A DNA stretch of 8,922 bases from an uncultured Bacteroidota bacterium. GTDB taxonomy: Bacteria; Bacteroidota; Bacteroidia; Bacteroidales; SZUA-534. The notes beneath the pieces were generated by a model. It was given only the letters and a program-made list of their open reading frames with translations, did no database searches and had not been told where the DNA came from. The DNA lies in NCBI GenBank assembly GCA_937885735.1, contig CALABN010000010.1, forward strand, positions 1-8,922, written 5' to 3'. Both the position numbers and the translations under genes were made by a program. Of this stretch, positions 5,265-8,922 are shown piece after piece (position 1 is the stretch's first letter; each line of letters opens with the position of its first letter).

Positions 5265-6155
5265 TCAATATATTATCTTGAAATATTCAAGCATTTTCTT
5301 AAAATTGTCCTGTGCGGTCAAGCAGGTGTCTTTAAGGTAGCCTGGTATGGTTGGACAATTCTGAAGGCCTCGATAATAGAAGATTTTCAGTTCATCGGTA
5401 ATGATGAACGGGACAATGTCGTTGGCAAGACATTCCTTGAACATTATCAGTCTGCCTACACGCCCATTGCCGTCCTGGAACGGGTGAATAGCCTCAAAAC
5501 GCTTGTGAAAGTCTATAATGTCGTCAATGGACTTTTTCTTCTTTGAACCATACTCTTTAAGAAGCGCAACCATAGAACGATGCACCATTTCTGGACTGCA
5601 CGTTTCCATTCCGCCGACTTCGTTCGGAAGGGCCTTGTAGTCGCCGACTTTAAACCACGGCTTGATGCTGTCGGACGTTCCTGACTTCAGCATTCTGTGC
5701 AAATCCTTGACAAGCCCTTCTGTGAGCCTTTCCTGTGCCTTGTCGATTATATAGTCGATGCATCTGAAATGGTTCACTGTTTCAACAATGTCGTCCACAT
5801 TCAGCGCGCCACTTTCAACTCCAACTGTGTTTGTTTCAAATATATAGCGCGTTTGGTCGTGTGATATACGGCTACCCTCAATGTGGTTTGAATTATAGGT
5901 AAGGTCGATTTGTATCTTATGATAGATGCCACCCTTTAGTCGGCTTTTCTTCTCTTCCTGAAGCCTTTTCAGCAAAAGGCTGATGCGCTTTTCCTTAACA
6001 TTGATGCGTGGGGGGACGGAAGCGTCTGCAGGGACGTTCCACGTCTTGCCTGTAAGAAACGCTCCGTCAATCTTACCTGAAGCACACCAGTTTCTGGCGG
6101 TTCTTTCCGCCACATTGGTCCTTTGGGCAAATTCGTTTACTGAAATGTAATCCAT
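5265..6155 (-). CDS. Class II Fic protein with N-terminal helix-turn-helix
   Basis: The protein has 296 residues. Residues 1-45 resemble a MerR/excisionase-type DNA-binding domain (SVNEFAQRTNVAERTARNWC, then GKIDGAFLTGKTWNVP). The Fic domain follows. Its catalytic motif HPFQDGNGRVGR (224-235, H224) fits HxFx(D/E)GNGRxxR perfectly, so it should transfer AMP from ATP to hydroxyl side chains of target proteins. The inhibitory motif SNHIEG (S89 to G94, E93) lies N-terminal to the active site, which makes it class II and self-inhibited until activated. The target is unknown. Class II Fic proteins with their own DNA-binding domain are commonly single genes without a separate antitoxin, and no antitoxin gene is seen next to it. 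The promoter region contains repeated operator-like sites, including one over the start codon, suggesting autorepression. A role as toxin, stress regulator or in phage defence is possible but not shown. Confidence 0.93.
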   Translation of the reverse strand: MDYISVNEFAQRTNVAERTARNWCASGKIDGAFLTGKTWNVPADASVPPRINVKEKRISLLLKRLQEEKKSRLKGGIYHKIQIDLTYNSNHIEGSRISHDQTRYIFETNTVGVESGALNVDDIVETVNHFRCIDYIIDKAQERLTEGLVKDLHRMLKSGTSDSIKPWFKVGDYKALPNEVGGMETCSPEMVHRSMVALLKEYGSKKKKSIDDIIDFHKRFEAIHPFQDGNGRVGRLIMFKECLANDIVPFIITDELKIFYYRGLQNCPTIPGYLKDTCLTAQDNFKKMLEYFKIIY

Positions 6156-6167
6156 ATCGGCAAGAAA
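6154..6167. promoter_or_regulatory. Third operator half-site ATATCGGCAAGAAA over the fic start codon
   Basis: These 14 bases are identical to the right half (plus centre) of the palindrome at 6197-6220 and lie 53 bases away, about five helical turns. They overlap the first two bases of the fic start codon. A protein bound here and at the palindrome could loop or cooperatively block the fic transcript. Confidence 0.55.
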
Positions 6168-6185
6168 AACATCAATAATTCACCA

Positions 6186-6216
6186 CAAATGTAATATTTC
6201 TTGCCGATATCGGCAA
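6186..6216 (-). promoter_or_regulatory. Bacteroidota-type promoter for fic
   Basis: On the minus strand TTG at 6216-6214 is followed by 20 bases and TACATTTG at 6193-6186, a full match to TAnnTTTG. Transcription would start near 6180, giving a leader of about 25 bases. The 20-base spacer and the -33 element lie within or against the 24-bp palindrome, so occupancy of that palindrome should exclude RNA polymerase. Confidence 0.6.
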
Positions 6217-6220
6217 GAAA
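6197..6220. promoter_or_regulatory. Perfect 24-bp palindromic operator in the fic promoter
   Basis: The sequence is its own reverse complement over all 24 bases, with half-site TTTCTTGCCGAT centred between 6208 and 6209. It fills the space between the -33 and -7 elements of the fic promoter. The half-site recurs over the start codon (6154-6167). This geometry is typical of a repressor site; the helix-turn-helix of Fic itself is the nearest candidate ligand. As RNA it could also form a hairpin, but it lies upstream of the predicted transcript start. Confidence 0.7.
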
Positions 6221-6251
6221 CAAACATAAGTTGTAATGTTTTTGTTTGCAT

Positions 6252-6375
6252 AAATATTGGGCAAAGTTGTGGTTAACTACATTCTTTTTACCACTTAACC
6301 ACAACTTTGCTCGGTGTTTTTGGAGTCTTTTGTGTGGATAAGTGGTTTTTCAAGGCACTTAACCACAACTTTGCC
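6252..6375. repeat. 124-bp repeat with terminal inverted repeats, copy 1
   Basis: This is nearly identical to 7869-7991: one A/G difference (6324 against 7940) and a small change with one extra base in a T-rich loop near 6283. The core is bounded by perfect 17-bp inverted repeats, GGCAAAGTTGTGGTTAA (6260-6276) and its complement (6359-6375). An internal complement (6295-6310) allows a 16-bp stem with 6261-6276 and an 18-base loop. A second stem pairs 6334-6344 with 6356-6366 (one mismatch, 11-base loop). TGTGGATAA at 6333-6341 equals a consensus DnaA box. It lies 36 bases past the ATPase stop codon and just upstream of the fic promoter. No coding sequence is seen in it; it resembles a non-autonomous palindromic element. 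Confidence 0.85.
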
Positions 6376-6411
6376 ATATAAAAATTCAAAATATATGGAA
6401 TTGGAACCATT

Positions 6412-7836
6412 CTACCTTAAATCGACAAACAAATCGTCCAACACAACTTCCGACTGAACATTGCCGAAATATGCATTGCGACTCAACCCGTAGGTTGTCA
6501 CCATAGTGAGATGAACCGATTTCCGTGCTTTGGTAGCCTGCTTGAACACCGACACCTTCCTACGTAGCAGGGCATCATAATCCTTGTCAATTGCAAACAC
6601 GTCGTTGACAAATTTCATCTCGCAGACATTCACCACATTGTCGCCTCTGTCGATAAGCAAGTCTATTTGCGCGCCGTCGTGGCTTGCGGTAGCCTGTGTC
6701 CGCCACGAGTATACTTGCGACAACACGCCCGAAATGCCTAACGCCTGCTTGATTTGTGCTATATGCTGAAGACAAACTTGCTCAAAGGCAAGCCCCGCCC
6801 ACGTTGAATGTGTGCTGGTTGAAAGATTGTTGCTCCAAAAATGTCCGTCGTTATTGATGTTGCTTTTAACAAAACGGTTGTAGAACAAGGTGAAATTGTC
6901 CATTAACTGATATGTTGCACCGCGTTCTTTCTTGTCGTATGGGTAGTATTTGCGAATCATTGCGCTCTGTTCAAGCTCCTCCAGCACTTTGGCAAAGGCT
7001 GTGTTGTCAGTAAGTCTTGTGGTTTCCAGCAACTCCATTCGCGACATTCCCGCCGATTTTTGCGCCAGCGCCTCAACAACAGCTATATGTGATGCCGAAT
7101 TCTTGAACAACGATGCGTAAAGCGCTTGGTATTCCATTTTGAGCGGTGCGGTTTCTGCAAAGAGCATCTCGTCGATATTCTGGGCCAGGCTTTCTTCCTT
7201 TTTCAGATAGTTCCAATAATACGGAATGCCACCCAAAACCATATACGCCTCGGCAATATCCTTACGCGAAAGAGCCAGATTTCTGGCGTTGCAATATTCC
7301 TCGCACTCCGACAAAGTGAATGGCTTGAGTTGAATTTTCCTGGTCAGTCGGTTGTGCAACCCTCCATAATCCAAAATGATTTTTTTTACAATCCACGAAG
7401 TGGCACTGCCACATATTATCAGCACTATATCGGTGCGCATATTGGCCCACCCGTTCCAAAAATGCTCAAGTGCGCTTATGAATTTCGATTGAGGGGTGTC
7501 AAGCCACGGCATTTCATCGATAAACACCACCTTTTTCCCTTCTGGCTTCGACTCGAGCAGGTCTGACAAACGGTGGAACGCTTCCTGCCACGATGTGATT
7601 TTGCGGGATTTTTTCAACCCATATTTGCGCAACGACTCTTGAAACTCAAGCAGTTGCTCGGCCTTGTTGCCTTTTGCCAGCCCTGTATGCTGAAAAGCAA
7701 AATTTTCGTTGAAAGTCTGCCTTATCAAAAAAGTCTTACCTACGCGTCGACGACCGTAAACCGCCACGAATTGCGATTCATACGAATCCAGCGCTTCCAA
7801 CAGTTGTTTTTTCTCGTTTTCCCTTCCTATCAGCAT
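6412..7836 (-). CDS. Archaeal-type AAA ATPase with C-terminal PD-(D/E)XK-like (DUF234) domain
   Basis: The 474-residue protein opens with LIGRENEKKQLLEAL and a Walker A reading YGRRRVGKTFLI (27-38, K34/T35). Walker B is VVFIDEMPW (D107/E108), and a sensor-like segment ICGSATSW (141-148) follows. Middle residues (about 150-330) include a winged-helix-like region. The C-terminal part contains IDLLIDRG and then CEMKF: D392, E406 and K408 have the D-x13-ExK spacing of PD-(D/E)XK nuclease folds, which fits DUF234. Family members are common, often multicopy and poorly understood; ATP-dependent nuclease or selfish-element activity is proposed rather than proven. The gene is on the same strand as fic but separated by 256 bases with a strong fic promoter, so they are probably not one operon. 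Near-identical repeats flank it within 36 bases on each side, marking it as a possible mobile or excisable unit. Confidence 0.9.
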   Translation of the reverse strand: MLIGRENEKKQLLEALDSYESQFVAVYGRRRVGKTFLIRQTFNENFAFQHTGLAKGNKAEQLLEFQESLRKYGLKKSRKITSWQEAFHRLSDLLESKPEGKKVVFIDEMPWLDTPQSKFISALEHFWNGWANMRTDIVLIICGSATSWIVKKIILDYGGLHNRLTRKIQLKPFTLSECEEYCNARNLALSRKDIAEAYMVLGGIPYYWNYLKKEESLAQNIDEMLFAETAPLKMEYQALYASLFKNSASHIAVVEALAQKSAGMSRMELLETTRLTDNTAFAKVLEELEQSAMIRKYYPYDKKERGATYQLMDNFTLFYNRFVKSNINNDGHFWSNNLSTSTHSTWAGLAFEQVCLQHIAQIKQALGISGVLSQVYSWRTQATASHDGAQIDLLIDRGDNVVNVCEMKFVNDVFAIDKDYDALLRRKVSVFKQATKARKSVHLTMVTTYGLSRNAYFGNVQSEVVLDDLFVDLR

Positions 7837-7857
7837 ATTTAGTATCGTTTTTCAAGG

Positions 7858-7865
7858 CAAATATA
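7858..7865 (-). promoter_or_regulatory. Possible -7 element (TATATTTG) for the ATPase gene
   Basis: TATATTTG on the minus strand fits TAnnTTTG and lies 22 bases upstream of the ATG at 7836. The nearest upstream TTTG (7882-7879) is only 13 bases away, inside repeat copy 2, which is shorter than the usual 19-20, so this is tentative. If real, the repeat would contribute to ATPase expression. Confidence 0.3.
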
Positions 7866-7868
7866 TAA

Positions 7869-7991
7869 AAATATTGGGCAAAGTTGTGGTTAACTACATA
7901 TTTTTACCACTTAACCACAACTTTGCTCGGTGTTTTTGGGGTCTTTTGTGTGGATAAGTGGTTTTTCAAGGCACTTAACCACAACTTTGCC
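7869..7991. repeat. 123-bp repeat with terminal inverted repeats, copy 2
   Basis: This is the second copy of the element at 6252-6375, in the same orientation and offset by 1616-1617 bases. Its terminal inverted repeats lie at 7877-7893 and 7975-7991, and its consensus DnaA-box word is at 7949-7957. It begins 32 bases upstream of the ATPase start codon. A 13-base piece of the element, GTTTTTCAAGGCA, also occurs just outside it at 7847-7859 (inside at 7961-7973), hinting at a former tandem or partial third copy. No target-site duplication is evident around either copy; both are preceded by the same AAATATTG, which I count as part of the repeat. Confidence 0.85.
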
Positions 7992-8225
7992 TATACAGTT
8001 TTCAACATTTGCTCTTTGCCAATTCTAAATTATGGTGACTTCTATAAATTGCTTTGTGGTGATTTTGAAGATTTTGTCAGGCAGATTGATGATTTGAACG
8101 AAGGTGCAGTGCGGGCACTGTGACTGAATGAAAGTCATCAAGATGACGACAAAAATTCAAAAGCACGCAAAAGATTAAAGGTCAATTCATATTTGAAAAA
8201 AATTTTTAAATCGGGGAAATTATAG
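7992..8225 (+). pseudogene. Possible decayed coding remnant between repeat copy 2 and ileS
   Basis: One frame is open across most of this stretch. It reads ILNYGDFYKLLCGDFEDF at about 8019-8072, then VRQIDDLNEGAVRAL, a TGA at 8121-8123, and continues in frame as LNESHQDDDKNSKARKRLKV to a TAG at 8223. The composition is acidic then lysine-rich, like the end of a real protein. No start codon, promoter or recognisable family is seen, and the frame upstream runs into the repeat. It may be the tail of a gene cut off by insertion of the repeat/ATPase unit, or chance. Confidence 0.25.
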
Positions 8226-8234
8226 AAGTTACCT

Positions 8235-8242
8235 TATATTTG
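8235..8242 (+). promoter_or_regulatory. -7 element (TATATTTG) for ileS
   Basis: TATATTTG fits the TAnnTTTG consensus exactly and lies 47 bases before the ileS ATG, leaving a leader of about 40 A/T-rich bases. No TTTG is found at the expected 19-20 base distance (the sequence there is TCGGGG), so only half of the promoter is convincing. No T-box or other riboswitch-like fold is apparent in the leader. Confidence 0.45.
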
Positions 8243-8289
8243 TGGGTTTTTTGAAAATCGATTTTATAATAAAAACATCATATATAGTT

Positions 8290-8826
8290 ATGAGCGGTAA
8301 ATTTCCCGAACACAAGCAGTTAGACTTGTCACAAATCAACAAGGACGTACTTGCTGAATGGAACAAGGAAAACACATTCCAAAAGAGCATCGATGCCCGT
8401 GAAGGCCATCCAAAATTCATTTTCTTCGAAGGACCACCATCGGCCAACGGCAAGCCTGGCATTCACCACGTTATGGCACGTAGCATCAAGGATATCATTT
8501 GCCGTTACAAGACTCTGCAAGGATTCCTGGTGGACCGCAAGGCTGGCTGGGACACTCACGGACTGCCTGTCGAACTTGGCGTGGAAAAGCAACTTGGCAT
8601 TACTAAGGAAGACATTGGCAAGAAAATCAGCGTTGACGACTACAACCGCGCCTGTCGCGAGGAAGTCATGAAATACAAGGACTTATGGGACGACCTCACC
8701 CGCAAGATGGGCTATTGGGTCAACTTGGACAACCCCTACATCACTTTTAAGAACGAATATATAGAGACACTCTGGCACCTCCTTTCAATATTATATAAAA
8801 CTTCTCTCCCTTTTCCCAAAATCTGA
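8290..8826 (+). CDS. ileS: Isoleucyl-tRNA synthetase, N-terminal fragment (prematurely ended)
   Basis: IleRS charges tRNA-Ile with isoleucine in the cytoplasm and is essential. The start at 8290 (MSGKFPEHKQLDL) is preferred over an in-frame ATG at 8242 that lies in the -7 promoter element. The fragment has FFEGPPSANGKPGIHHVMAR (46-64; the class I HIGH signature reads GIHH), then RKAGWDTHGLPVELGVEKQL and KMGYWVNLDNPYITFKNEYI, all typical of Bacteroidota IleRS. After IETLWHLL (residue 165) the text becomes SILYKTSLPFPKI and stops. A full enzyme is over 1000 residues and continues with a conserved segment such as LYKGYTIQPYSP, so editing, anticodon-binding and KMSKS regions are all missing. Base use also shifts abruptly to A/T-rich codons near 8785. 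A 178-residue product cannot function, so this is either a broken copy or, equally likely, a join to unrelated sequence at a contig end. Confidence 0.85.
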   Translation: MSGKFPEHKQLDLSQINKDVLAEWNKENTFQKSIDAREGHPKFIFFEGPPSANGKPGIHHVMARSIKDIICRYKTLQGFLVDRKAGWDTHGLPVELGVEKQLGITKEDIGKKISVDDYNRACREEVMKYKDLWDDLTRKMGYWVNLDNPYITFKNEYIETLWHLLSILYKTSLPFPKI

Positions 8827-8922
8827 TAATAACATTATACTCTCAAGTTAACTAAAATCAATAGAAAAAACACAAGAGCAGCGCAGTTTTCTTCTTGATT
8901 TTTTAAATTTACCATGATAATA
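8785..8922. other. Unrelated A/T-rich sequence following the ileS break
   Basis: From about 8785 to the end the sequence is A/T-rich, has stops in the ileS frame and shows no recognisable gene, repeat or RNA. An ATG at 8914 runs only to the edge. It could be the end of an inserted element or mis-joined assembly sequence. I see no inverted-repeat end or intron boundary at the junction. Confidence 0.4.

Follow-up and report, generated by a model that had tools for sequence, protein, structure and literature searches.

Why should a single ATPase gene be framed by two nearly identical direct repeats? The locus that raises this question lies in a window of 8,922 nucleotides (the whole stretch of DNA that was analysed), which is Bacteroidales-like and carries genes for a response regulator, a histidine kinase, TatD, an acyltransferase, a Fic protein, the ATPase and a truncated ileS. 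The answer to which we give about an even chance is that the ~1.74-kb segment 6252-7995 is a one-gene mobile unit, the ends of which are predicted binding sites of its own product. The features of the segment, with their sources in brackets, are as follows.

6412-7836, minus strand: ATPase gene, 474 aa (ORF list, Pfam, PADLOC, homolog alignment, model)
7869-7995, minus strand: upstream repeat U, two imperfect palindromes (repeat search and gapped alignment)
6252-6380, minus strand: downstream repeat D, in the same orientation as U (repeat search and gapped alignment)
7972-7983, minus strand: U half-site 1, TGTGGTTAAGTG type (converted from offset -147)
7949-7960, plus strand: U half-site 2, inverted (offset -124)
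7908-7919, minus strand: U half-site 3, 64 bp from half-site 1 (offset -83)
7885-7895, plus strand: U half-site 4, inverted (offset -59)
6356-6367, minus strand: D half-site 1 (offset +44)
6333-6344, plus strand: D half-site 2, inverted (offset +67)
6292-6303, minus strand: D half-site 3, 64 bp from half-site 1 (offset +108)
6268-6278, plus strand: D half-site 4, inverted (offset +133)
7858-7865, minus strand: promoter-like TAnnTTTG between U and the start codon (sequence; family statistic)

A preliminary description of this DNA had reported direct repeats of 124 and 123 bp bracketing the ATPase gene, and the repeats are present. They were initially delimited as 6252-6375 and 7869-7991, with a 91-nt block of 99% identity, a 37-nt block of 95% identity and a start-to-start distance of 1616/1617. 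Gapped alignment over 129 columns extends them to 129 nt (D) and 127 nt (U) with three differing places, and puts the stop codon 31 bases away from D and the start codon 32 bases away from U. The identity of U and D is beyond chance, since the other direct repeats listed for the window are 20-27 nt long and 71-90% identical. D is absent from the nearest fetched relatives of the window protein (L001, L002 and L037, 67-68% identical). Taken with this absence of D, the close similarity of the two window repeats points to a recent duplication or homogenisation of the repeats, which is how their origin had been read before. Two further observations concern the surroundings of the segment. The perfect palindrome TTTCTTGCCGATATCGGCAAGAAA (6197-6220) lies 5' of the Fic gene and is a possible operator. 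In 8290-8922 the ileS frame stops at 8826 after about 180 residues, with AT-rich sequence beyond, which may be a contig-end artefact or a disruption.

The framed gene encodes a STAND-type ATPase with a STAND/NLR-like fold. According to the structure model, from which the domain limits are taken, it consists of an AAA/STAND ATPase domain (residues 1-240), a winged helix (about 248-311) and a PD-(D/E)XK domain (about 341-447). The residues D392, E406 and K408, singled out previously, do exist and, together with E352, are invariant in all 30 aligned homologs; the PD-(D/E)XK domain is apparently intact, with its catalytic motifs present. The label "DUF234-type" has to be given up: Pfam assigns the window protein to ATPase_2/AAA_14, with DUF4143 below threshold (27.2 bits, cut-off 28.1), and DUF234 is a weak match in six of the 30 aligned homologs and is not found by Pfam in the window protein itself. 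No strand-transfer, recombinase or transposase domain was found by Pfam in the window protein, and no transposase family in the 30 aligned sequences. In PADLOC the protein is a full-length match to the candidate PDC-S27 (PDLC04984, E 5.7e-205, residues 2-470), with ATPase_2 above its cut-off; it has the P-loop, the winged helix and the PD-(D/E)XK domain by which PDC-S27 and STAND ATPase_2 proteins are recognised. The neighbouring Fic gene is assigned to PDC-S04, and PDC-S01 occurs among some hot-spot neighbours. The archaeal ATPase_2 proteins with PD-(D/E)XK, of which 2QEN and 2FNA are solved relatives, belong to the same family (PADLOC; available text of PMC12988326). PDC-S27 is named there as an unvalidated defence candidate, and the available text of PMC4158269 describes arCOG03166 as an AAA+ ATPase carrying fused HTH and RecB nuclease domains and as a likely defence or plasmid gene; by our reading, arCOG03166 probably includes the subfamily of the window ATPase. 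Flanking cognate sites or mobility of the unit are not mentioned in the available portions of these two papers, and no description of such sites was recognised in searches of open-licence PMC literature. Relatives of the window ATPase are found at nine loci in viral contigs, in seven phage records and in 145 plasmid records. At L280 (2489-3952, Wolbachia phage WO) a family ATPase adjoins head-gene annotations, and no palindrome is present there.

The framing of the gene by matching sites is widespread among its relatives. One scan yielded 39 related loci; 29 related Bacteroidales genomes, searched with a homolog cut-off of E up to 1e-40, contain 1 to 25 homologs each. All compared genomes are MAGs, and the evidence for mobility comes entirely from relatives of the window unit. 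Upstream and downstream regions were compared for 90 genes whose flanks were long enough, most of them among the closest relatives of the window protein, from nine genomes in which 166 homolog matches were counted. When set against the fetched genes of the same genome, the upstream region of 69 of the 90 found its best match in the downstream region of the very same gene, and 68 own matches exceeded the 99th percentile of non-cognate pairs; the other 21 genes had no own best match. At a fixed threshold, a U/D match was found for 90 of 124 ATPase genes; in the control, made up of the remaining ORFs of these loci that reach 250 aa, it was found for 9 of 466. The presence of a palindrome by itself discriminates less well (upstream 98/124 vs 51/466, downstream 74/124 vs 87/466). 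This real-gene control was used in place of a weak shuffle control for the palindromes (0/159), and a first blastn table (82/111), which double-counts loci and takes in non-palindromic matches, was left out of the rates. The 127 family genes form 53 clusters at 75% identity, 37 of which have at least one member with matching U and D. Among 16 relatives that are more distant or are carried by viruses and plasmids, 11 have a palindrome upstream of the gene (score at least 11) and two have a U/D match. Judged by these matches, the window is one instance of a common architecture in related Bacteroidales.

The sites are private to each paralog. Half-sites differ between paralogs of one genome, and the mean site similarity is 0.86-0.94 for proteins above 75% identity and 0.51-0.58 below, where site similarity is unrelated to protein identity. 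The idea that specificity is seated in the winged helix was dropped: in pairs below 75%, no domain's identity correlates with site similarity (permutations reaching the observed value: winged helix 16/200, other domains 77-149). Genome-wide searches covered two site types, both from relatives of the window unit, in 8 and 14 genomes. The probe from the L154 unit has two copies in G004, G006 and G010, where the ATPase is present, one copy in G003, G008 and G027, where it is absent, none in G007, and in G009 a 31-bp partial match beside another family ATPase. In 14 of 14 genomes, every match of the second probe lay in the flank of a family ATPase. The repeat had been expected to lie beside other genes of the family, and a repeat found mostly far from them would have spoken against a unit; of the two types searched, every copy either adjoins a family ATPase or is a leftover.

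The arrangement of the half-sites suggests how they may be read. Half-sites of the same orientation are spaced by 63-64 or 51-54 bp, near whole helical turns, in 88 of 107 cases (related genes counted separately), and by 64 bp in both window repeats. In one cluster from 15 genomes, 54 palindromes were found (60 expected at four per gene) with a pattern allowing three mismatches per arm. Their arms do not covary: 544 of 594 pairs are complementary, the shuffled mean is 545.6 and 778 of 1000 shuffles are as good, in a test with essentially one variable half-site position, independent on the two arms, and with conservation partly imposed by the search pattern. For this one low-variation site family, the result favours recognition of duplex half-sites by a dimer over a base-paired hairpin. 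A hairpin or RNA reading of the repeats is not supported, as their strong folding (DNA z -6.1, RNA z -9.6) is expected of palindromes and the arms of the site family tested show no covariation; Rfam gave nothing at gathering score in 6000-8300 and 12 weak matches. A TAnnTTTG promoter, which we take to be the Bacteroidota -7 box, lies at most 60 nt upstream of 101 of the 127 family genes (4.5 in shuffled sequence), and the upstream palindrome ends about 23 bp before it (n=70). As the upstream sites abut the promoter, autoregulation of the family ATPase genes through these sites is likely. An upstream copy is present without a downstream copy in many relatives; since the upstream copy often stands alone and the repeat abuts the gene's promoter, the repeat is more than an element end.

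Comparison of matching loci revealed both occupied and empty states. The L189 unit separates a stop codon from what is, by eye, the terminator hairpin belonging to it. In G005, the only one of eight genomes in which both flanks adjoin, the flanks are 7 bp apart with zero half-sites. At the L172 locus, three of eight genomes (G003, G008 and G010) have a 60-61-bp spacer between the flanks and no half-site; the remaining five do not show both flanks together. The L154 locus is occupied in four genomes, G010, G006, G004 and G005 (the last with a different left flank). G003, G008 and G027 lack the unit there and retain a single repeat, bordered on the left by the flank of U and on the right by that of D. 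One palindrome is also left at the L144 locus in G003, which has neither the unit nor the neighbouring PDC-S01 gene. One-repeat loci free of the ATPase, which had been proposed as something to look for, are thus found in relatives. The L189 locus in G008 (L229 2729-2917, G008 C18) contains two L172/L189-type palindromes 152 bp apart with no ATPase between them, which means that loss need not leave a single site; altogether, one site is left in four cases and two close together in one. Turnover of the units is slow as judged from these alignments, because G003, G008 and G010 share most of the examined copies at the same loci. In G004 (L237, C6), the locus of the L189 unit of G009 holds, as judged by eye, a probable remnant of another family ATPase with an internal deletion, which would make it a reused insertion site.

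The edges of displaced copies were examined in 47 pairs, belonging to 13 protein clusters, in which both flanks are unrelated. The left edge of the shared sequence lies at most 15 bp from the outer edge of the upstream site in 11 of the 13 clusters, and both edges are exact in three. The clearest pair, L172/L189, is shared from -92 to +61, with palindromes at -92..-42 and +13..+61; L162/L168 is shared from -137 to +120, with outer site edges at -139/-136 and +116/+120. When all pairs and single sides are taken, many of them from one locus and so not independent, left edges fit in 101 of 138 cases (37 miss) and right edges in 30 of 47 (17 miss). Where no downstream palindrome was called, the shared sequence ends near the stop codon in 7 of 15 pairs. 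Genes that lack their own U/D match, L001, L002 and L037 included, are likewise found at unrelated loci. The G008 and G027 units are 96% identical, with 88-100% identity in 50-nt steps through the gene and less than 50% beyond the sites, and the G008 unit is only 78% identical to that of its sister G010. By this comparison, the G008/G027 pair is a recent transfer and a movement within a hot spot, since the same neighbourhood resumes further right, behind another inserted gene. The single MAG G021 contains a pair of copies, 95% identical, whose flanks are unrelated and whose shared sequence reaches up to 55 bp beyond the downstream site; the two copies may be a strain mixture. No target-site duplication was found (4.00 vs 3.61, n=37, with uncertain unit edges).

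In part of the family the units have, as far as alignments of flanks can tell, discrete ends, presence and absence at matching loci, and insertion at site-free loci; all three were found in relatives only, with both ends exact in 3 of 13 clusters. The earlier proposal of an excisable or mobile unit fared accordingly: it stood in relatives, where the shared unit ends at the repeats in several cases and one-repeat loci occur, and the part in which the nuclease acts on hairpins of the repeats is not supported, as the arms of the one site family tested do not covary. In the mobile-unit reading the family ATPase would itself move the unit, with binding, autoregulation and catalysis as its predicted activities. 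The winged helix would recognise the half-sites as duplex DNA, with dimers phased by whole helical turns. Bound at the upstream site, the ATPase would repress its own promoter, and binding at both U and D would draw the ends of the unit together. ATP-gated cleavage by the PD-(D/E)XK domain would then release the unit, or initiate repair from one direct repeat to the other, so that a single site stays behind; insertion may rely on the same protein together with host repair. The main weak point of the mobile-unit reading is the lack of a strand-transfer domain combined with the lack of a target duplication; deletion between the repeats could be the host's work. The case is further weakened by exact ends in only 3 of 13 clusters, by the two-site leftover and by the shared neighbourhood of the G008/G027 transfer.

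In a rival account, possible although rather unlikely in our judgement, the gene is autoregulated and its mobility passive. The sites would be operators, D would close a repression loop or act as an insulator, host recombination would delete between the direct repeats and ordinary horizontal transfer would spread the gene. Repeats of 70-130 bp are known to be recombined by the host, a TAnnTTTG promoter lies close upstream of the gene (101/127 genes, with the palindrome ending about 23 bp before it), and the distant relatives have the upstream palindrome far more often than a matching downstream copy (11/16 and 2/16). A pure operator, however, leaves the matched downstream copies of 69 of 90 genes unexplained, and random fragments would be expected neither to end at the outer site edges nor to bring both sites to site-free loci.

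That the gene serves anti-phage defence, as a STAND sensor with a nuclease effector located in defence hot spots and with the palindromes as its switch, is compatible with mobility; as an explanation of the locus we hold it to be quite improbable. Defence genes are not known to have sites specific to each paralog on both sides. The strong PDC-S27 match in PADLOC (E 5.7e-205), the PDC-S04 Fic neighbour, PDC-S01 at some hot spots and the STAND/NLR-like fold all speak for defence, with the candidate status given as unvalidated in the available text of PMC12988326. Very unlikely, finally, is that the units are moved in trans by an unrelated transposase, MITE-like, with the ATPase as cargo. The ATPase has no transposase domain, as this would have it, but each paralog has a site type of its own, matched to its own gene, and a shared transposase would have no need of this.

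Several known systems resemble the unit in part. RAYT genes encode a tyrosine transposase and are flanked by their own palindromes (REP), and the family ATPase gene is similarly framed by its own palindromes. Unlike RAYT, the ATPase has no transposase domain, and neither of the two site types searched is scattered through the genomes, each copy in the 8 and 14 genomes being a leftover or a neighbour of a family ATPase; REP ends are base-paired hairpins, whereas the one family site type tested shows no arm covariation (54 palindromes, essentially one variable position). Insertion sequences have terminal repeats and, in the minimal case, consist of one gene and two ends. The ATPase units share this plan, with probable recognition of the ends by the product, and differ in that Pfam finds no DDE, HUH, serine or tyrosine transposase gene in them, the ends are direct, and no target duplication was seen. 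In p-dif modules and integron cassettes, genes also lie between palindromic sites and loss can leave one site, but there one site type is common to the cassettes and a host or integron recombinase acts on it, whereas ATPase paralogs carry different sites. For the same reason, a resemblance to GTTRRRY, presumably the integron attC motif, was dropped. A homing endonuclease gene likewise pairs a nuclease with a presumed recognition site; its insertion destroys the target site, whereas occupied ATPase alleles keep intact sites on both sides, if those are the cleavage sites.

A broader proposal, which we make tentatively and with some doubt, is that the units form a new class of autonomous one-gene element, in which a STAND ATPase with a winged helix and a PD-(D/E)XK domain would move itself through the pairing of two paralog-specific palindromic sites, with no known transposase, recombinase or integrase; PDC-S27 in this lineage would be largely selfish, each element being insulated from its paralogs in one cell by a private code. 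Should the PDC-S27 genes of the lineage prove to be mobile units of one gene, each with its private ends, censuses of defence systems would be counting mobile elements, and a DNA-recognition code that has diverged over dozens of paralogs would be open to study. The capacity of a STAND ATPase-nuclease to move DNA becomes directly testable.

Other ATPase genes were noted in and around these loci. Several different ones occur in succession at L144, L146, L148, L154 and L156, and L154 also has two ORFs resembling (by eye) an AbiEi/AbiEii pair. At L254 (3514-4815, G003) a PDC-S01-type ATPase gene is flanked on either side by matching palindromes; the sister genome G008 (L104), which does not have the gene, keeps one. 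PDC-S01 was considered as a second instance of the architecture and rejected: 4 of 25 genes pass the U/D threshold, with clear palindromes (by eye) only at L254. ATPase genes of other families lie between direct duplications of 43, 157 and 51 bp at L083 (3621-4793), L084 (7906-9252) and L074 (2250-3845), respectively (coordinates on the strand read). These duplications contain the ends of neighbouring genes or a terminator (by eye), as if insertion had duplicated the target.
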